From NCBI GenBank assembly GCA_009780115.1, contig WRAQ01000001.1, positions 124,001-188,000 of the forward strand: DNA of 64,000 nt. The letters run 5' to 3'. The notes under the pieces were generated by a model. It searched no databases, had not been told where the DNA came from, and saw nothing but the letters and a program-made list of their open reading frames with translations. The DNA comes from Lachnospiraceae bacterium (GTDB lineage Bacteria > Bacillota > Clostridia > Lachnospirales > Lachnospiraceae). The translations under genes were made by a program, and so were the position numbers. Shown here piece after piece: positions 15,451-58,538 of the stretch (position 1 is its first letter; each line of letters begins with the position of its first letter).

Positions 15451-17088
15451 TTATTTCGTTATCTGTAGTAATTTACGTTTTATTTTCCCTAGCTTTATCC
15501 TTACCTTAAGGTTAAAGTGATAAAATAAAATCTTTCTGTCTGTTTTGAACTCATTATGCCGGCGCGGCCGGTTTAACATGATCTCATCAAATCCGGTGTC
15601 TGTCAAATTTAGCTTTTCTTTTACTTGACTGGTAATCCGGCTCATTGCTTTTTCATCATAAAGCGGTACATCTAAATAAAGTTTAAGCGCTTCGTCACGG
15701 GTTAATTGACCCGAAATAATCATGCTGGATAAATGAGACTTTCTTTTGTCAACGCCGAATTTTTTTGGGAGCCAGTATAACTGGATAAAAGCCGTCAGAT
15801 TATTTTCCAAATGTTTGCTTCCATAATATTCAAAGCCGCAAAAGTCAGCAAGTTCGGCAAAAGCCCGGTCGCGGTTATAATCAATAAAATTAAGCGGTGT
15901 TACTGTTTTTATGCCAATTTTATTTTCAATAACCCGCTTGCGCGCGTGAGAAATAAAGTCAAGTTTGTCAATTGGCTCTTTTCCAAATTTCCGATTGATA
16001 TCATTCAAATTAACGAGATCCCTGGTACTATGATTGTTGCTCCGTTCAAGGATACATTCAAGCGCATAGTTTTCGCCGGACAAGAAATATTTTATATTTT
16101 TTTCTTCCGCATACTTAAACAAAGTAGCCGATAAAATATTATCCTGCGGGATATCGAGCTTGGGCACCCCGGCTTTCATATATGCCTTTATCAGTGCATT
16201 ATACTGTTTTTGGTCAGGGCAAATATTGATGAACTTAAACCCGGTTGCCTGTTTTAATTTTTCCAGGTTGCCCCGCGAAATATCACTGTCAAATCCATCG
16301 TCAATATGGACACAGATGACCCTAAGTCCCCATTTGTACCCCAAGTATGCCAGATAGGAAGAATCCAGCCCTCCGGACACACCCATCAGGCAATCATACT
16401 CATTATTTTTATTTTCTGTTTTAATCAGACTTAATAATTCGGCCAGTTTTTCCGTGCCGGTATCATCGGGAAAATAACGTAAAGCCTTTGATTCAAGGGC
16501 GCTGTTACAATAATTGCAATAACCGTTTGTGTCAAAAATGATGGTATCATCTGAAGAGCTGTCCATTATACAACGGCGGCATCTAATTATTTGGTTTTTT
16601 AATATCTCCCCGCTTTCACTTACCCAGCCCTTTTGTTTTGCCGGGACACCCATCATCAGGGCATAATCCGGTACATCTTTGGTGACGACCGCACCGGCAC
16701 CGATAAAAGCATACCGGCCAATGGTATTTCCGCAAACAATCGTTGCGTTCGCCCCGATGGTTGCGCCTTTCTTAATCAATGTTTTGCGATAACCGGCCGG
16801 CCCTTTCCGAAAGCCGCTCCGGGGGGTATAGTCATTTGTGAAAACACAGGACGGCCCGCAAAAAACTTCATCTTCAAGTTCCACGCATTCATATATCGAA
16901 ACATTATTTTGAATCCGGACATTGTTTCCAATGATAACATTATTTGAAACATTGACATTTTGACCCATTGTACAGTTTTCGCCGATGACAGCACCGCTTT
17001 GGATATGGGAAAAATGCCATATCTTTGTCCCTTTGCCAATCTTAACATTAGCATCAATATATGAGGATTCATGCGCGAAATAATCCAT
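15451..17088 (-). CDS. Fusion: N-acetyltransferase (WbpD-like) + N-acetyl sugar amidotransferase (WbpG-like)
   Basis: One frame of 545 residues with two enzymes that are normally separate. Residues 1 to about 160 are a left-handed beta-helix N-acetyltransferase ([65 protein letters not shown]) like WbpD/WlbB. After a short SESGEIL linker comes a WbpG/PseA-type amidotransferase: zinc-site cysteines at about 170 and 173 (CRRC), a second CxxC in GYCNYC, and a PP-loop SGGLDSS from residue 238. The WbpD part would acetylate the 3-amino group and the WbpG part would convert an acetamido group to acetamidino. TAATG couples it to the dehydrogenase gene. No HisH/HisF-like ammonia suppliers are seen. 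Confidence 0.88.
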
Positions 17089-18158
17089 TAAAACTCACCT
17101 TTCATGTCTAAGGTCGAAAAGTCATCGAGCGGAAATTTTATTGTCCGCCCCTCTTTCTGGCTTTTATAAATTGCCAGGACAAGCTCTAATGCTTTTTTTC
17201 CTGCTTCGGCATCAATATACGGCGCCCGGTTTTTCTTAATCGCTTCAATCACATCACTATAGAGCGGGGTATGCCCATAACCGTATACACTAGGGGGTTT
17301 TTCATGGTATTTTTTCTTGACCTCATCCGGGTCATCCAAGCTATCGGAAAAAATCCATTCCTCAATCATATTTACTGACTCACCGCCGGCTTTTACCGTA
17401 CCTTTGTCACCAAATAAATAAAGGGTTTCTTCCAAATTGCGCGGATATATGTTAGTTGTGCCTTCAATAATGCCATAACTGCCGTTTTTAAACCGGATTA
17501 AGGCAATCCCTAAGTCTTCGGCTTCAATATATTCATGCTTTAAACGGTCAGTCATCCCAACCACTTCCGTAATTTCATCACCCATCATCCACCGCAGCAA
17601 ATCAATATTATGAATGCATTGATTCATCAACGCACCGCCGTCCTGCCCCCAAGTACCACGCCATTTCGCCCGTGCATAATACTCATAATCCCTTGCCCAG
17701 CGCACATGGGCCGTCCCGTACAAAAGCCGCCCGAAGCGATTCTTTTCGACTGCCTCCCTGATTTTCTGAATCGATTTATTAAAACGGTTTTGATGGCAGG
17801 CACATACTTTGACATTCTTTTCTTTTGCTTTTTCAATAATCCTGTCGGCATCAAATAATGATAAGGCAATTGGCTTTTCAATAATTAAGTGGCAACCGGC
17901 TTCAATGCAATCAAGCGCAATATCAGCATGGTTCCCGCTTTCAGTTGCGATGGTGACAAGCTCCGGTTTTATTTCCTTTAACATTTGTTTATAATCGGTA
18001 TATAAAGGGGTTGCAGCATTTAGCTCAAACTTTAAAACCTTATCTTGCATATATGCAGGAACGATGTCACAAAGCGCCCCGATTTCTAAATGGTTATTTT
18101 GGGCGGCGACGATATGGTTTGGTGATATCCGGCCGCAACCGATAAGTGCATATTTCAT
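17088..18158 (-). CDS. MocA-family UDP-GlcNAcA 3-dehydrogenase (WbpB/WlbA-like)
   Basis: Probably oxidises C3 of UDP-N-acetylglucosaminuronic acid with NAD. The 356-residue protein begins [15 protein letters not shown] and has a complete EKPIALS motif (lysine present, unlike the protein at 1-819). It also has CACHQNRFN and [16 protein letters not shown], the active-site histidine region. The ATG at 18158 follows GGGAGTTAAG; an upstream ATG at 18170 overlaps that ribosome binding site and is rejected. It heads a five-gene coupled run (dehydrogenase, acetyltransferase-amidotransferase, aminotransferase, RfbF, RfbG) directly after the two-hairpin element. The UDP-GlcNAc 6-dehydrogenase expected before this step is not in the window. 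Confidence 0.82.
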
Positions 18159-18224
18159 CTTAACTCCCATCTGTCTGCTTTAGCAGACGTGCAAAACAGG
18201 ATTGTGAAAGATTTATCTTTCACA
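18159..18224 (-). repeat. Two-hairpin intergenic element, copy 1
   Basis: On the minus strand: hairpin A, TGTGAAAGA-TAAA-TCTTTCACA (18224-18203), then linker ATCCTGTTTTGCAC, then hairpin B, GTCTGC-TAAA-GCAGAC (18188-18173), then AGATGGGAGTTAAG and the ATG at 18158. The TGA stop of the upstream glycosyltransferase lies inside hairpin A, and the ribosome binding site of the next gene lies just after hairpin B. A close copy with compensating stem changes is at 41194-41259. There is no T-tract after either stem, so it does not look like an intrinsic terminator. Confidence 0.85.
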
Positions 18225-19581: not shown

Positions 19582-21336
19582 TCAGGTTATGTCTATGATA
19601 TCCTTTTTATCACGTTTAGTAATTTTCCCGTCAGCGATTTCATAAATAATATCGGCATTCTTAATTGTCGTCATCCGATGCGCAATAATCAGCATAGTTT
19701 TTAACCCTTTCAAGCTGTCTATTGCTTCCATTACCGCTATTTCTGTTTCATTATCAAGTGCTGATGTCGCTTCATCAAGCACCAAGATCTCCGGGTCATG
19801 GTAAAGCGCCCTTGCTATCCCAATCCTCTGCCTTTGCCCGCCGGACAAACGGATGCCGCGGTCACCAACGAAAGTATCAAGGCCTTCCGGCAGATTATCA
19901 ACAAAATCATACAACTGTGCTTTTTTTAGGGCGGCTTCAACGGAAGCTTCATCGATTGATTCTTCATTTACTCCAAAAGCAATATTATTACGAATCGTAT
20001 CATCAGCAAGATAAATTACCTGCGGAATATAGCCAACTTGCTTATGCCACAAATCAATATTTTTAAAGATGTCCATTCCGTCAGCAAGTACTTTCCCTCT
20101 TTGGGGCGGTAAAAGGCCCAGGATGATATCGGCAAGCGTTGTTTTTCCTGCCCCTGAACTGCCAATAAAAGCCGCAGTTTTCCCTTTTGGAATCTCACAG
20201 CAAGCATCATCCAGCACATTTTCATCAGTATTGGGGTAAGCATAACTGATATTGCGGATAACAATACTGTTTTCGAAATTCCAGTCTGTCTGTGTCTCCT
20301 GTTTCCTTGCGGCTGTGCCATCATGGTTTTCTATTTCGACTAAATCCTCATATATTAAGTCAATTGAGGCCGAAGCATAATTCATCGTACTAAAATGCTC
20401 ATTGATGCGGTTTGCTGCCGGTAACAAACGAAAAGCGGCCATCGCAAACACAGCAAGTTGTGCCACAAAAGTTGATGTATCATGTTGGCTATAATAAATC
20501 CGGGCGATGATTACCAAAAATAATCCCACCATGCAAACAGTCTCGACCAAATATTTAGAAGAACCTTGAATCAATTTATTAATACCATTCATTCTGACCG
20601 CAAGCTTATTGTATTTTCCAAATGATTCAATAAAAAATTCTTCCCGGCTTAATACTTTTACTTCTTTTATCCCGCTTAATGACTGGTTAATCCACTGATA
20701 TATTTTTGCACTATAAAACTGAAATTCTTTTCCGAGTTTTTTGATAAACCGGCGCGTTATTTTCATATACAATCCAACGCAGACGAACAGTAATAACGCT
20801 ACAATCATCGCCATCGAACGGCTGACAACAAAGAGCATCATACCAAGGGAGAAACAAACAAGAATTTCGCTCAATAACTGAACCATATTCACCATGGCAA
20901 TTGAAAATTGTAAGGTATCGTTTTGGATGCTGCGCTGTAAGACCGCAATATTTTTGTTAAGGTGAAAAGTATAAGGCTCACGCATATATACGGATAGCAT
21001 TCTAACGGCAAGGCGATTTTGGACATCATTTGAAAAGCGGATATTATACCACTGTTTAAATAATAAAAAGATGTTTTTCGCAACATAAATAATAATTATG
21101 ATGATACACATAAAGGTCAGGAACTGCTCATAAGTATTCAAATGAAATTGAGTGCTTATCCGGCTTAAGATACCGTTATTTTCAACTTCTGACGGATTCA
21201 TCAAGAAGTTAATGAAAGGCGAAAAGATAGCAACTGCCGCAAGCTCTAAAAAACTGCCGATAACAATCAGGATAAATAAGAAAAAAAGCTTGATTTTGTC
21301 TTTCCTGTCAAATATATATGCCAATTTATTTATCAT
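19582..21336 (-). CDS. ABC exporter, fused membrane and ATPase domains (PglK/MsbA-like flippase)
   Basis: A 584-residue half-transporter that dimerises. Residues 1 to about 330 hold six membrane segments; the rest is an ATPase with Walker A GSSGAGKTTL (about 388-397), signature LSGGQRQRIGIARAL (about 492) and Walker B ILVLDEATSALD (about 512), then the H-loop in IIAHRMTT. The overall look, including an N-terminal AIFSPFINFLMNP segment, is that of PglK-type exporters that flip lipid-linked oligosaccharides. Protein, lipid or drug export cannot be excluded from the ATPase alone. It lies 3 nt after a GT4 gene. A second such exporter is at 56778-58538, about 35 kb away. Confidence 0.88.
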   Translation of the reverse strand: MINKLAYIFDRKDKIKLFFLFILIVIGSFLELAAVAIFSPFINFLMNPSEVENNGILSRISTQFHLNTYEQFLTFMCIIIIIIYVAKNIFLLFKQWYNIRFSNDVQNRLAVRMLSVYMREPYTFHLNKNIAVLQRSIQNDTLQFSIAMVNMVQLLSEILVCFSLGMMLFVVSRSMAMIVALLLFVCVGLYMKITRRFIKKLGKEFQFYSAKIYQWINQSLSGIKEVKVLSREEFFIESFGKYNKLAVRMNGINKLIQGSSKYLVETVCMVGLFLVIIARIYYSQHDTSTFVAQLAVFAMAAFRLLPAANRINEHFSTMNYASASIDLIYEDLVEIENHDGTAARKQETQTDWNFENSIVIRNISYAYPNTDENVLDDACCEIPKGKTAAFIGSSGAGKTTLADIILGLLPPQRGKVLADGMDIFKNIDLWHKQVGYIPQVIYLADDTIRNNIAFGVNEESIDEASVEAALKKAQLYDFVDNLPEGLDTFVGDRGIRLSGGQRQRIGIARALYHDPEILVLDEATSALDNETEIAVMEAIDSLKGLKTMLIIAHRMTTIKNADIIYEIADGKITKRDKKDIIDIT

Positions 21337-39327: not shown

Positions 39328-41193
39328 TCAAGGTAATGTGTATATTTCTACGAAGGGAAATACAGGATGATGTTCTGGATTGTATAAAAAATAATAATGA
39401 GCCGTTGGTAAATAAACAAAATTAAAGTGCCATAAATAAGCAATTGTATAAAACGCGATTATAAACAATGATAAGATAAGAGTTATTTTCGCAAAAAGAT
39501 GTTTTTGGTTTTGATAAAGTTTGATTAACCCTATCGATACTAAGATAACAATAAAAATCCATGTACCGCATGAACGTAAACTATGCGGATTACCTTCTAC
39601 GGTAAGAGCTGCAGGCAACAAACTTAGAAAAAATCCGCTTATTGAGATTACTCCCAGAAATGCTTCACTTTTGTTCAATTTTCCTTTAACGCAGAAATAA
39701 AGTAAGGTGAGCGAAGGCAGAATTGAGCCGATACCAAGCATACCGCTAATGGCGCCAGTAGCGTGCCGCAAATTCTTATCGCCTGTAAAAAACAAATAAT
39801 CAAATGATAAGAGCATGTCCATGTTTTGAATAAATGCGCTGATTCTTTCCCTTCTGCCAATAATACTTGTAATAGCTATTCCACCTACTCGTCCTGTATA
39901 TGCCGGCCAAGTAAAAAAAGCTATCACCAAAGGAAGAGCATAAATGAAAGAAAGTACTAAAACAATGGAAATTTGTTTTACATTAATATGCTTGTTACGA
40001 AATAGATAAACATAAAACAGAATATATAAGCTAACCGCAAGAAAGCTTATAGATACATAAGTATAGACACTAGCAACTAAAGCAAGCGGTAAAAGAACAT
40101 ATGCTGCTATATGGCTTACTTTATAGAAAGCTTTATCCCAAGCTACTGGATTTGCTAAGCGGCTAAAAGCCCAAAAAGCTATGATAATATATATTGTTAC
40201 GAAAGTCGGATCCCAAAATAGCATACCTTGCAGAAAATTCCATGGAATCAATAAGCCAATAATTGTCGCTAATAGCCATACTAATAAATTGCCTTTATAC
40301 CAATATGAAATAGCCCTGCCTAGTAAAATAATTGAACCGATTGTCGATAAGCTTACAAATAATCGAAGTGAGATTATGGAATAACCAAAAATGGTTGCCC
40401 AAAGTGTAGCAGGCCCTAAAAATGTTATTGGAGAATAGTCCCCATCCGTTTTAACAAAAAATAGACCGAAATGATCAAACTCCGTTGGGAAATTGTTGGT
40501 TAGAATTGCTTTGACAACACCGGCCCGCGATTCTTCGTCAATGTAAAAGGTATCATGCTGAATAGCAAAAATCAGTCTAAATATAATCAAAAGTACTATG
40601 AACGTATAACCAAGAGCTTTAATTATACTTAGCTTATTTTTGCGTTTTATAAAACAATAAAATGCTATATTAATCAAGAATAATACCAATAAGCATAAAA
40701 AAATATAAAATCTTATTTCTGACGTAGAGGAAGAGATAGATATACTGCGCACAAGCAAATAATTGTTTTCTTTATCATCCCCCACAAGGTTTAGATGAAA
40801 TTTTATCGGGTCATTATTTCTGCTAACGATTAGATTAAACGAATGTTCACCAACAAAATCTCTAAGATACCGAGTGCCGTTTATGCTGCCCGCATATTTC
40901 CCCCCGCCAATAACATAATCAGCATATATAGAGCCTTTACCATTTGATTCGTATACAACAGATATATCATATACGCCGGGACGCAACTGTATTTCCGGAG
41001 TTATAAGCGTAGCTGTTTCATCATAAATATCAAAAGCTATATAAAAGCCCGGTTCGGTATTTTCATAATATTTTAAATACAAATCATTTTGCGAAAATTC
41101 CAGATTTATTTGCGGCAATTTATTTACTAGGGCAATTACAATGAATACAATCAAGATTTGCACTGCCGCAAATACTATAATTACTTTTTTCAT
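39328..41193 (-). CDS. GT-C-like membrane protein with N-terminal ectodomain (ArnT/PMT-like)
   Basis: 621 residues. One N-terminal helix is followed by about 140 extracellular residues (NLEFSQNDLYL, TPEIQLRPGVYDISVVYE, NYLLVRSISIS), then about ten to twelve membrane segments. FYIDEESRAGVVKAIL after the second helix is the acidic loop of ArnT/PMT-type GT-C enzymes. The ectodomain is shared with the 771-residue neighbour at 41255-43570, but the membrane cores differ. The product probably moves a sugar from a lipid carrier to a glycan outside the cell. It starts directly after hairpin element copy 2, with GGGAGTTTAA before the ATG. Confidence 0.72.
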   Translation of the reverse strand: MKKVIIVFAAVQILIVFIVIALVNKLPQINLEFSQNDLYLKYYENTEPGFYIAFDIYDETATLITPEIQLRPGVYDISVVYESNGKGSIYADYVIGGGKYAGSINGTRYLRDFVGEHSFNLIVSRNNDPIKFHLNLVGDDKENNYLLVRSISISSSTSEIRFYIFLCLLVLFLINIAFYCFIKRKNKLSIIKALGYTFIVLLIIFRLIFAIQHDTFYIDEESRAGVVKAILTNNFPTEFDHFGLFFVKTDGDYSPITFLGPATLWATIFGYSIISLRLFVSLSTIGSIILLGRAISYWYKGNLLVWLLATIIGLLIPWNFLQGMLFWDPTFVTIYIIIAFWAFSRLANPVAWDKAFYKVSHIAAYVLLPLALVASVYTYVSISFLAVSLYILFYVYLFRNKHINVKQISIVLVLSFIYALPLVIAFFTWPAYTGRVGGIAITSIIGRRERISAFIQNMDMLLSFDYLFFTGDKNLRHATGAISGMLGIGSILPSLTLLYFCVKGKLNKSEAFLGVISISGFFLSLLPAALTVEGNPHSLRSCGTWIFIVILVSIGLIKLYQNQKHLFAKITLILSLFIIAFYTIAYLWHFNFVYLPTAHYYFLYNPEHHPVFPFVEIYTLP

Positions 41194-41259
41194 TTAAACT
41201 CCCATCTGCCTGCCATAGCAGGCGTACAAATCAGGATTATGAAAGATTTATCTTTCATA
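41194..41259 (-). repeat. Two-hairpin intergenic element, copy 2
   Basis: On the minus strand: hairpin A, TATGAAAGA-TAAA-TCTTTCATA (41259-41238), linker ATCCTGATTTGTAC, hairpin B, GCCTGC-TATG-GCAGGC (41223-41208), then AGATGGGAGTTTAA and the ATG at 41193. Compared with copy 1 at 18159-18224, the second pair of each stem has changed on both sides (G-C to A-T in A; T-A to C-G in B). The linker and ribosome-binding segment are nearly unchanged. The TGA stop of the 771-residue gene is inside hairpin A at the same place as in copy 1. Confidence 0.85.
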
Positions 41260-43570
41260 CTATTCTTCCTCGTCTCTTAACTTTCCGCAAGATTGCCCTA
41301 CCTGCGGGCATTAATAAATATACTAAAGTTATCAGTGATATAAATTCTGCTATCCGCCAATAAAAAGGTGATATAAATTCTATTTTTAATGTTCCGCTAA
41401 AATCGGCGGGTATCTCAATTTGTAGCCGCCCTAAGTTCCCATCCGAAATAGCCATTAAATTATTGCTTTCTAAATGCCTTGCCTGATAACCCTTATAATT
41501 TACCCTAGGAACCTCAATAAAAGTTTGCGCCGCCGAATTTATCAGCTTAATTTCCAAATAACTTAATTGATTATTCCACTCTATCACCTGTATATCTTTA
41601 CTTATAATCGTGATTTCATTGATATAATTGATAAGATCATTATCCGGGTCCACTCCGGCAGGCAAATATTCACCGCCGGTTACATAATCTCTTGTAGGGT
41701 CAATTTCATAAATAAATTGCGGCCTCATTTCACTTAAAATATTACTTACAAAGTGAGATCCCTGCCAGCATGAAATTACAATAATGGAAATAATGAACCC
41801 ATACCGGATATTTTTATTTACTGCGATTTTTTGCGCCGTAAGGCCGGCCAATAAAGCTACTAGCAAAATTATTATTGCATTCAAACGGAATGGAAATTGT
41901 AAAGATTTTGCGACATAAGCAGTCAGCGGGATGATTCGAGATAAAATGTGCCATGGAAATAATGTCGAAGCAGTAAACATAGTAAAAGCAATCATAATAT
42001 ATAGGAAAACTTCTTGATTTCTTGATTCTCTTTTTCTATCCCCTTTAAGTAAAAGCCCGGTGGCCAAAATCAAGGCTGATGACATTCCAATACTAAGAGG
42101 CCCATCGCCTCTTACCCCGGCTTGATACACAGTTTGCCCGGCCCCAAAATTGTAATCGGACATAAAAAATTGTGGTACAAATACAGCCTGTCTCCTAAAA
42201 TTCAATACATGGTGCATAGGGTCGGCAATTGTATTTCCAACCCAATCATATTGCATATAATCTATAAATGGCACCAAAAACCAGGCGTTTAATAGAATTA
42301 TCAGAATAAACGCTTTCACCAATTGCAATAATTTTTCTTTTTGCCATATCTTTTTTATCAGAATAATTATAGTTAATAGAGTAAATCCAAAAACCATTAA
42401 CATCGTAATCGCATGTGAAATGATAATACCGGAATATCCTATTACGAGGGGTATCCACGCTTTCTTGTATTCCTCCATGTTTTGTTTCGTAATCAAAATA
42501 TATAATCCTAAAGCTATTAAAGGTAAAAAAGTAATAGCTGTGTATTCACCAACTGCTGACCTATTGTAGATATTAATTAACCGATAAATATTTGCAGAAT
42601 AGAAAACCGCCATCATTAACCCTATTAAAGATTGGCCGGAAATCTTACGGAAACAATAATAAGCAATTAAAACCGTAGCGATATTAATAATAATAATATA
42701 TAAATTGTATACAAAATATAAAGGCAAACCAAACCATCTTAGCAGAGCGGGAAGATAGAGAAAAAGATCACCATACATGATGCTGGTGGCATACCCATGC
42801 CCACTTAACCAGCTAGGCTGAATCCGTACCGGGAACTGACCGGCCAAAAATCCATCTTTTAAACCTTCAATTCGCATCAAGTGAAACCCAAAATCAGCAC
42901 CCGCAACCGAGTAGCCCACTAATGCCGGCATACTGATAAGAAAAATTGTAAACAGTAAACTGCCGCTGATAAATCTTTGATTGATTGATAAGGAGTTAAA
43001 CATGGATATTAACTTTTTCCGCTTATAAAAACAGTAAAGCACGATATCAAACAGGATGAATAAAAAAATGCAGATAAAGCCGTAGTACCTTACTCCTATT
43101 GCGGAGGCAGATATAGATACATTCTTAACCAAAAGATAATCGCCATCGCCGCTACTGTTTAAGCTAAGATATATTTTTGTCGGATTTCCTCTTTCGTTAT
43201 TGGTTAGGTTAAACGAAAGATTATCAGATTTGCTATCGAAATTTATAATGCCGCTTAAACTGCCTTTTAGGCTTCCTTTACTATAATCAGCATATACCAC
43301 ACCTTTACCTTCTATTTCATAATCTATTGAGATAGTGTAAGCACCAATACGCAAGTACATTTCAGGTGTAACAATACTGGCAGCATCTCCCCCATCCAAT
43401 TTATAACCTGCTGCTAAATTAGTATCTTTATCCATTATAAGTAATTCATCTTGTGAAAAATCCAAATTTGATAGTGATGCCTTCGATATTGTATTAATAA
43501 CAAAAACCAGAATTAAAATCTGGGTTAGGGCTATTATAGCGGTTATGATTATTTTTTTATAATTTTTCAC
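41255..43570 (-). CDS. Large GT-C-like membrane protein with N-terminal ectodomain (YfhO-like core)
   Basis: 771 residues starting at a GTG (43570) with CCGAGG upstream. A first helix and an ectodomain (SNLDFSQDELLI, TPEMYLRIGAYTISIDYE, DYLLVKNVSIS) are shared with the 621-residue protein. About twelve membrane segments follow, beginning with SVAGADFGFHLMRIEGLKDGF, which places acidic residues and a histidine in the first loop as in YfhO/GT-C proteins. A C-terminal outside domain (about 620-740) precedes the last helix and a basic tail. It likely glycosylates the glycan outside the membrane. The stop codon is contributed by hairpin element copy 2. Confidence 0.7.
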   Translation of the reverse strand: MKNYKKIIITAIIALTQILILVFVINTISKASLSNLDFSQDELLIMDKDTNLAAGYKLDGGDAASIVTPEMYLRIGAYTISIDYEIEGKGVVYADYSKGSLKGSLSGIINFDSKSDNLSFNLTNNERGNPTKIYLSLNSSGDGDYLLVKNVSISASAIGVRYYGFICIFLFILFDIVLYCFYKRKKLISMFNSLSINQRFISGSLLFTIFLISMPALVGYSVAGADFGFHLMRIEGLKDGFLAGQFPVRIQPSWLSGHGYATSIMYGDLFLYLPALLRWFGLPLYFVYNLYIIIINIATVLIAYYCFRKISGQSLIGLMMAVFYSANIYRLINIYNRSAVGEYTAITFLPLIALGLYILITKQNMEEYKKAWIPLVIGYSGIIISHAITMLMVFGFTLLTIIILIKKIWQKEKLLQLVKAFILIILLNAWFLVPFIDYMQYDWVGNTIADPMHHVLNFRRQAVFVPQFFMSDYNFGAGQTVYQAGVRGDGPLSIGMSSALILATGLLLKGDRKRESRNQEVFLYIMIAFTMFTASTLFPWHILSRIIPLTAYVAKSLQFPFRLNAIIILLVALLAGLTAQKIAVNKNIRYGFIISIIVISCWQGSHFVSNILSEMRPQFIYEIDPTRDYVTGGEYLPAGVDPDNDLINYINEITIISKDIQVIEWNNQLSYLEIKLINSAAQTFIEVPRVNYKGYQARHLESNNLMAISDGNLGRLQIEIPADFSGTLKIEFISPFYWRIAEFISLITLVYLLMPAGRAILRKVKRRGRIV

Positions 43571-56777: not shown

Positions 56778-58538
56778 CTAAGCTATTTCAGTTACTTCCA
56801 GCTTCCCGTTAACCACCTTATAAATTATATCACATTTTGCAATCGTATTCAGGCGGTGGGCAATAATTATCATTGTTTTGCGGCCATGGAAATTGTTTAT
56901 TGCATCCATAACAGCTTGTTCTGTTTCATTATCAAGAGCTGATGTCGCTTCATCGAAAACGAGGATTTCCGGATTGTGATACAAAGCCCGGGCAATGCCA
57001 ATCCGTTGTCTTTGCCCGCCGGAAAGGCGGACACCCCGTTCACCAATAAAAGTATTTATCCCTTCCGGTAATTCTTTCACGAAATCATCTAACTGCGCTT
57101 CTTTTAAAACTTCCCAAATCCGCTCTTCATTAATTTCTTTTTCATTGATACCAAAGGCAATATTATCACGGACCGACTCATCAACCAAATAAATCGACTG
57201 GGGGATATAGCCAATCTGGGCGAGCCAGGATTCATAATTTTCATAAATATCCCGCCCGTCGCAAGTAATGCTTCCTGAACCGGCATGGAGCAAGCCTAAT
57301 AGGATATCAACAATTGTTGATTTACCCGCCCCGGATACACCCATAATACCAACTGACTTTCCTTTTGGTACCCGCATTGATGCATCGGCAAAGATTTTTT
57401 TGTCCGTGCCCGGATAAGCATAGGTAATTTCATTGAGTCTAATTTCATTATTCAAGACAAGTTTTGCGGTTAACGCTTTTTGCTTCTGTTCCGCTATATT
57501 GGCATCAGTTTTCATGCCTTCCTGCATATTTTCATATACATATTCAAATGCCGGTTGGTTAAAAGCTATCTCGGAAAAATAAGTATTCATCCGGGTAAAA
57601 CTTGGTAACATCCGCAAGGCTACTACGCCGAAAGCAACCAAAGTGGCCATCATATTATCAACCGAACTTCCGCCAAGCATAAATAATAGGATAAAACTGA
57701 AGACACCGGCAATAAATACCGTCTCAACCAGCAAGCGCGGGGTATTATTAAAAAAGGTATATGTTCGGGTCGTATTAGCAGCAATATATCCGGTTTCCCG
57801 GTATTTGTTTACAAAAAAGTCCTCGCGGTTAAGAACTTTAATATCCTTTAAACCGTAAACAGTATAGTGGCGCCAGCGTGAGGTTTGGGCTTCAATTGCA
57901 TGGTTTTTTTCGCCAACCCGGTTAATAATTGGCCTAAGCACCTTTAAGAAAAATATTGTTACCCCGCCGAATAATGCCATGATAAATAAGGTAAACTGCC
58001 AGTTTGAAATAATCAGGACAAAGAAAAGCAAAACCGCAACACAAGCTTCAGTCGCAAGTTGCAATACTGCCAGAATTAAAGAAAAGCATTTGGGGATGTC
58101 CACACCAACCAGGCGGAAAACAGTCGGGATATCAGCGCCAAGATATGCTTCATAGGGGCGGTTAAGAAATTCGCGAAGAACGCGGCTGGTTAATTTTATC
58201 TTGCTATAATTAATAAATGAAGCCTGATAATAAGCAAGAAGTAGGGCAAAAAGGTTTTTGACGATAAAAATTATAATAATACTAACCAGCAAAATAATAA
58301 CTAGTTGATTAAAGCTTTTGATTCCTAAGAAATTATATATATTCAATAGAATAGCATTATTTTCAATTATCGGCATAATACTATCCGGGTTCATAATCAC
58401 TGTTATTACCGGAATTAAAGCAGATATCCCTAATGTTTCCAAAATACCGCCAACAAAAATCATAATCCCCAAAACAGCAAATTGCTTTTTTTGCTTTTTG
58501 TCTAAGATGAATCTAATCTTCTTTATTATGGTGAGCAT
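56778..58538 (-). CDS. ABC exporter, fused membrane and ATPase domains (PglK-like), copy 2
   Basis: 586 residues. Six membrane segments lie in residues 1 to about 320; the ATPase has Walker A GVSGAGKSTIVD (about 395), signature LSGGQRQRIGIARAL (about 500), Walker B ILVFDEATSALD and the IIAHRLNT histidine loop. It resembles the exporter at 19582-21336 along its whole length (both have VRDNIAFG- or IRNNIAFG-type segments and GERG/GDRG before the signature). The likely role is flipping a lipid-linked oligosaccharide. The start at 58538 has GAGG 5 nt upstream. It is preceded by a 120-nt gap holding two large hairpins. Confidence 0.88.
   Translation of the reverse strand: MLTIIKKIRFILDKKQKKQFAVLGIMIFVGGILETLGISALIPVITVIMNPDSIMPIIENNAILLNIYNFLGIKSFNQLVIILLVSIIIIFIVKNLFALLLAYYQASFINYSKIKLTSRVLREFLNRPYEAYLGADIPTVFRLVGVDIPKCFSLILAVLQLATEACVAVLLFFVLIISNWQFTLFIMALFGGVTIFFLKVLRPIINRVGEKNHAIEAQTSRWRHYTVYGLKDIKVLNREDFFVNKYRETGYIAANTTRTYTFFNNTPRLLVETVFIAGVFSFILLFMLGGSSVDNMMATLVAFGVVALRMLPSFTRMNTYFSEIAFNQPAFEYVYENMQEGMKTDANIAEQKQKALTAKLVLNNEIRLNEITYAYPGTDKKIFADASMRVPKGKSVGIMGVSGAGKSTIVDILLGLLHAGSGSITCDGRDIYENYESWLAQIGYIPQSIYLVDESVRDNIAFGINEKEINEERIWEVLKEAQLDDFVKELPEGINTFIGERGVRLSGGQRQRIGIARALYHNPEILVFDEATSALDNETEQAVMDAINNFHGRKTMIIIAHRLNTIAKCDIIYKVVNGKLEVTEIA

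Follow-up and report, generated by a model that had tools for sequence, protein, structure and literature searches.

Two near-identical elements in the window

The window, by which we mean the whole 64,000-nucleotide stretch of DNA analysed here, holds two short elements of 65-66 nt that are near-copies of each other, and the question they raise is whether they are structured regulatory RNAs or copies of something that moves. Both have a common order, running from hairpin A through a linker and hairpin B to ATGGGAGTT and a start codon, and their features are as follows (SD, Shine-Dalgarno).

18159..18224, minus strand: element copy 1 (L001/L032), preceding a MocA-family gene (sequence and model match)
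18203..18224, minus strand: copy 1 hairpin A, TGTGAAAGA-TAAA-TCTTTCACA, holding the element's GTG start and the upstream gene's TGA (fold, ORF ends)
18189..18202, minus strand: copy 1 linker, ATCCTGTTTTGCAC (sequence; a conserved column block in 83 copies)
18173..18188, minus strand: copy 1 hairpin B, GTCTGC-TAAA-GCAGAC (fold, covariation)
18162..18172, minus strand: copy 1 tail, AGATGGGAGTT, with SD GGGAG, probably used by the downstream gene (sequence; start codon at 18158)
18155..18223, minus strand: copy 1 leader mini-ORF, its stop overlapping the MocA start codon at 18158-18156 (ORF reading)
41194..41259, minus strand: element copy 2 (L002/L029), preceding ORF 39328-41193 (sequence and model match)
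41238..41259, minus strand: copy 2 hairpin A, TATGAAAGA-TAAA-TCTTTCATA, holding the element's ATG and the upstream TGA stop (fold, ORF ends)
41224..41237, minus strand: copy 2 linker, ATCCTGATTTGTAC (sequence)
41208..41223, minus strand: copy 2 hairpin B, GCCTGC-TATG-GCAGGC (fold)
41197..41207, minus strand: copy 2 tail, AGATGGGAGTT, with SD (sequence)
41190..41258, minus strand: copy 2 leader mini-ORF, MKDKSFIILICTPAMAGRWEFK, its stop overlapping the downstream ATG at 41193-41191 (ORF reading)
41267..41271, minus strand: GAGGA, a putative native SD, now ahead of copy 2's own ATG (sequence)

These features agree with the sequence-only reading that had singled out the locus. The stem of hairpin A is 9 bp long and its loop is TAAA, the ATCCTG linker is 14 nt long, the stem of hairpin B is 6 bp long, and the two copies do differ by the paired stem changes it described (TG/CA against TA/TA, and GTC/GAC against GCC/GGC). 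Each copy is also, as it had said, an exact gene-to-gene connector, with the upstream TGA stop inside hairpin A (18222-18220 in copy 1, 41257-41255 in copy 2). Of the two downstream genes it named, the MocA dehydrogenase was confirmed (17088-18170), whereas "GT-C protein" could not be upheld for ORF 39328-41193, for which no Pfam match was found at E≤0.001. It had counted four copies here; the window holds only two, and no third was found, the next model matches being reverse-strand or chance (E 0.03 or worse). With up to 3 mismatches allowed, a 25-nt probe drawn from the 3′ half matched twice in the window against 0 expected from shuffles, and the folding of both element RNAs beat 200 of 200 shuffles (z -3.9 and -3.4). 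Rfam, searched at two thresholds, gave 0 matches at gathering score in the window and one chance miRNA (E 0.67), so that neither element belongs to a named family there, as the reading had supposed. Elsewhere in the window, a 300-nt direct repeat with 72% identity (19625-19924 and 56803-57102) lies inside two similar-sized ORFs, 19582-21336 and 56778-58538, which are probably paralogous genes.

Copy number, subfamilies, and distribution

The search was then extended to the window's own genome, that of a gut Lachnospiraceae bacterium (3.08 Mb in 72 contigs, 96% complete). BLAST returned 28 matches, the last few weak or partial, and a covariance model returned 28 strong copies plus weaker ones, giving a total of at least 28 dispersed copies, with tandem copies at two places. 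Further copies therefore exist and their stems are kept, on both of which the sequence-only reading had depended. By hairpin B, the copies fall into subfamilies with GCCTGC/GCAGGC, GCCGCTC/GAGCGGC, or GCGCAC/GTGCGC.

The 14 stretches that a pattern scan of named public genomes picked up all come from metagenome bins, whose labels are Lachnospiraceae, Roseburia, Acetatifactor, or Clostridia. With a second model, the element type was seen in just 15 of 397 sampled Lachnospiraceae and, in a class-level sample of Clostridia, in none besides the query genome, both among the matches listed; the compared genomes were mostly draft or metagenome assemblies. Four amplified genomes had 36 to 143 matches among those listed, many of them tandem with a period of ~65 nt. 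The distribution is thus patchy, with amplification confined to particular lineages. Phage, plasmid, and viral-contig searches yielded no element matches. Congener G005 carries ~50 matches (L163-L182) to a second repeat type, GTGGAAATTAAAATTTCCAC...TTTCACAAGCTCCGCTTGTGAAATGCATGGGGTATA-ATG, which has the same plan in a different sequence and often directly precedes gene starts. In a Roseburia sp. metagenome bin (L120, L121, L126, L130), copies of the repeat are joined in a chain with a third hairpin module, GTGAAAAGTACTTGTAA ... ACAAGTACTAAGTTTCAC; when this chain is translated in-frame, some ORFs gain an N-terminal stretch, KSTCK..QNAKQVRA..STKFHA, and at L126 the frame bearing it has 801 codons.

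Placement at gene starts and inside genes

Read by hand, 21 of the 28 strong own-genome copies are directly followed by a gene start. Among the other seven, two lead into a tandem copy, one leads into a degenerate copy, and two lie inside genes, with L042 and L053 making up the number. When 20 cleaned copies were counted automatically, 15 had a frame of at least 60 codons starting no more than 8 nt downstream (~5% at random positions), and 14 had an SD-like motif ahead of the element's own start codon (10% at random positions). Placement is looser in other genomes, a gene start following 6 of 13 copies in G284, 7 of 11 in G365, and about half overall; copies in other Lachnospiraceae are often chained to other hairpin modules, and one G284 copy (L224) sits upstream of a native SD. 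The downstream genes, named by reading the sequence, include thrS, murG, ribF, tmcAL, ligA, spoIIIAC, yabP, and asp23-like genes, among others, and they form no regulon.

The two copies within genes differ in orientation. L045 lies in-frame and in sense within a 5-formyl-THF cyclo-ligase gene, to which it adds MKDKSFIHLELNAAQRRLMGVG. L049 is a 66-nt in-frame insertion in an anti-sigma-like gene, with TCGCGTTA on both sides, and, being antisense, it is unable to act as a 5′ leader. At L030 and L033 (G000:C2:42086-42233 and C50:16184-16330), L038, and L066, the element's ATG directly follows a -10-like box (TATGAT-AATAAC-ATG, TATACT-AAT-ATG); a transcript would start at or close to that ATG, giving a leaderless mRNA whose 5′ end would form a hairpin.

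Orthologous sites in congeners

The downstream genes were located in five congeners by joint protein query, and none of the 49 orthologous loci gave a significant match to the element models. At ribF, the window's own genome reads GGTGTTATA-element-AAATGAAAATAATC, and the empty site in G005 is GGTGTTATTAAATGAAAATTATC; at spoIIIAC, it reads AGAAGGGGATTAAA-element-CTATGGCAATA, and the empty site in G002 is AGAAAGGAATTTTCAATGGCAATA. The cyclo-ligase ortholog in G005 lacks the L045 element, and there is an empty site at the anti-sigma-like gene also. The ribF and spoIIIAC comparisons place the element downstream of the native SD and upstream of the native start. From these alignments, the element's RTG would appear to replace the old start codon, with GGGAG as the new SD.

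An element of different sequence and the same plan occurs in a congener at tmcAL, at a LytTR-type regulator, and at secA-thrS. This sharing of a position by unlike types, seen in three genes or more, tells to some extent against mobility, as it could also mean an old conserved element. Elements of different types also directly follow secA (L087, L119): those in the window's own genome and in G003 precede thrS, and a further Lachnospiraceae bin has one as well; the secA 3′ end may be either a hot spot or the site of an old element with sequence turnover.

A probable mobile repeat with its own start codon

We think it probable that both elements belong to an interspersed palindromic repeat of Lachnospiraceae that is mobile but non-autonomous, is ~65-66 nt long, and mostly sits just before start codons. 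At least 28 short dispersed copies and presence/absence at orthologous sites mark it as a small mobile palindrome, MITE-like in the broad sense. It does not look like a MITE in the strict sense, as each hairpin is internal, no terminal inverted repeats of a known IS were seen, and flank duplication is not general.

The ends of the repeat suggest how it could be tolerated. The left end, RTGAAA, is one arm of hairpin A and would supply a start codon and a lysine codon, and the right end, hairpin B plus ATGGGAGTT, would supply an SD. Where present, the old SD would serve the element's start codon and a mini-ORF, usually of 6-25 codons, and the element's GGGAG would serve the downstream gene, probably via reinitiation or coupling. 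Insertion at a start codon would create a decoy mini-ORF, would be near-neutral, and could recur to build tandem arrays. That the element comes with a start codon and a ribosome-binding site would explain how it can spread without silencing genes; active movement, mini-ORF translation, reinitiation, and near-neutrality are all inferred.

No transposase or other mover was identified for the element. General target-site duplication was not found, the identity of left and right flanks mostly not exceeding that of shuffles (p values of 0.14, 0.01, and 0.49 in three sets). Duplication had seemed plausible from L034, L035, and L049 alone and was rejected, since the three-set test fails and the left start codon in G284 is the element's own. 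The strict spacing at own-genome starts would argue for targeting or for RTGAAA microhomology. We raise, tentatively and as something possible rather than probable, a broader start-codon-targeting mobile class, in which diverse hairpin families of Lachnospiraceae with one plan (a start codon in the first hairpin and an SD at the end) would recognize RTGAAA or the initiation region, insert there repeatedly, and build chains of decoy mini-cistrons, instead of being the survivors of random insertions.

Covariation of the stems

The paired stem changes had been taken by the sequence-only reading as a sign of selection on RNA structure. In 83 copies, which are not independent, hairpin B and the linker helix together had both sides changed in 87 cells, nearly all of them in hairpin B, where shuffles gave 23 and slid controls gave 6 to 35 for the two helices. 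These double changes mark off one subfamily or species type from another. A stem selected in sense RNA should favour G.U mismatches; the single mismatches in hairpin B were 19 G.U against 14 A.C (p 0.49), or 13 against 11 over distinct stems. Hairpin A had 13 G.U against 4 A.C, a count biased by how the hairpins were found. As hairpin B has no G.U preference and the changes lie between subfamilies, the covariation is no argument for an RNA regulator, and the claim of selection for such a regulator is not supported. Upkeep of the palindrome at the DNA level or founder subfamilies account for the covariation equally well. The practical warning is that paired stem changes within a genome can stem from repeat subfamilies rather than from RNA selection.

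Alternative explanations

Strong folding, stem covariation, and a position between operon genes are what would be expected of a cis-acting regulatory RNA selected for structure in operons, be it a riboswitch, an attenuator, or a processive antitermination leader of the EAR or LoaP-dependent kind, the last being the nearest idea of the sequence-only reading. We regard this as quite improbable and do not retain that idea: no Rfam family matches, the downstream genes are unrelated, copies occur within coding sequence (one of them antisense), 0 of 49 orthologous congener loci carry the element, and hairpin B lacks wobble asymmetry. Mobilization of a REP element by a RAYT (Y1) transposase is very improbable, too. 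Short hairpin repeats that sometimes overlap the upstream stop codon do resemble GTAG REPs (PMC3733652), but no GTAG or GGAG tag lies directly 5′ of the hairpin, and Y1_Tnp (PF01797) was absent in the window's own genome (where controls were positive), G005, G127, G369, and G320. Of 10 genomes that carry the repeat or are related, 5 also lacked it, and several high-copy genomes are among those without it; it is possible that a RAYT transposase has since been lost from the genome. That a conserved leader-peptide gene (MKDKSFTILICTPAKAGRWEL-like) was copied many times is scarcely credible. The copies have their own SD and start codon, and several frames of 22-23 codons finish at or near the next start codon, but many others stop at 6-10 codons or shift frame (VKSRFHNPELRAHINVR, VKLNFTILI) while the hairpins and linker are kept, and we rejected this candidate on those frame changes.

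A further explanation is compatible with the mobile repeat: an ex-mobile copy might be kept as a translational coupler, in which pairing of UCCUG with UGGGA would hide the SD until the ribosome on the mini-ORF opens the helix, so that translation of the gene would keep pace with that of the leader. This pairing, between linker and tail, is possible in 96.6% of cells across the 83 copies, which were partly chosen by these motifs, and structure prediction shows the helix in copy 1 but not in copy 2. Its covariation did not exceed that of shuffles in the 83 copies. Leader reinitiation has been proposed as a general means of raising translation (PMC4833913), a role that would suit the coupler. On balance, we think such a function rather unlikely.

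Comparison with known systems

Small repeats are usually viewed as lying in harmless gaps or as tolerated within genes. If true, a mobile repeat able to sit at a gene's most sensitive point, because its opposite ends provide a start codon and a ribosome-binding site, would represent an unusual strategy. It would also mean mini-ORFs and N-terminal extensions on many gut-bacterial genes, confused start-site annotation, and a repeat that imitates a covarying regulatory RNA in motif searches. Our literature search, incomplete and without most subscription journals, found no description of this repeat in Lachnospiraceae, nor of any repeat that sits at start codons and brings both a start codon and an SD.

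EAR and LoaP-dependent leaders are structured RNAs associated with polysaccharide operons of Firmicutes. The Lachnospiraceae repeat is likewise structured; unlike them, it has no Rfam match, precedes unrelated housekeeping genes, and also occurs inside genes. REPs are short multi-copy palindromes, some of which give stop codons to their neighbours (PMC3733652). The present repeat is also a short palindrome in many copies, although it differs from REP/RAYT systems in having no Y1 transposase in its own genome and no GTAG tag.

The pneumococcal BOX, RUP, and SPRITE are small hairpin repeats of a Firmicute that form modular arrays and sometimes ORFs (PMC3049150, PMC10969869), and the Lachnospiraceae repeat is similarly small, hairpin-forming, interspersed, and chained in arrays. 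BOX is built of boxA-boxB-boxC modules, and BOX-encoded ORFs have no good SD candidates (PMC3049150), whereas the present repeat, compared with BOX by description, has a pair of hairpins and an SD that is positioned at the start codon of the gene. Rickettsia palindromic elements are dispersed palindromes of several sequence families, without a transposase of their own, that lie in-frame inside unrelated protein genes (PMC10969869). In-frame copies within genes occur here as well, in 2 of 28, as the exception to what is the rule in Rickettsia. Those elements are ~150 bp long and mostly intragenic, whereas the Lachnospiraceae repeat is 65-66 nt long, lies mostly at start codons, and has its own start and SD, a comparison made by description and not by sequence. 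The Rickettsia palindromic elements and pneumococcal BOX, RUP, and SPRITE come closest in kind.
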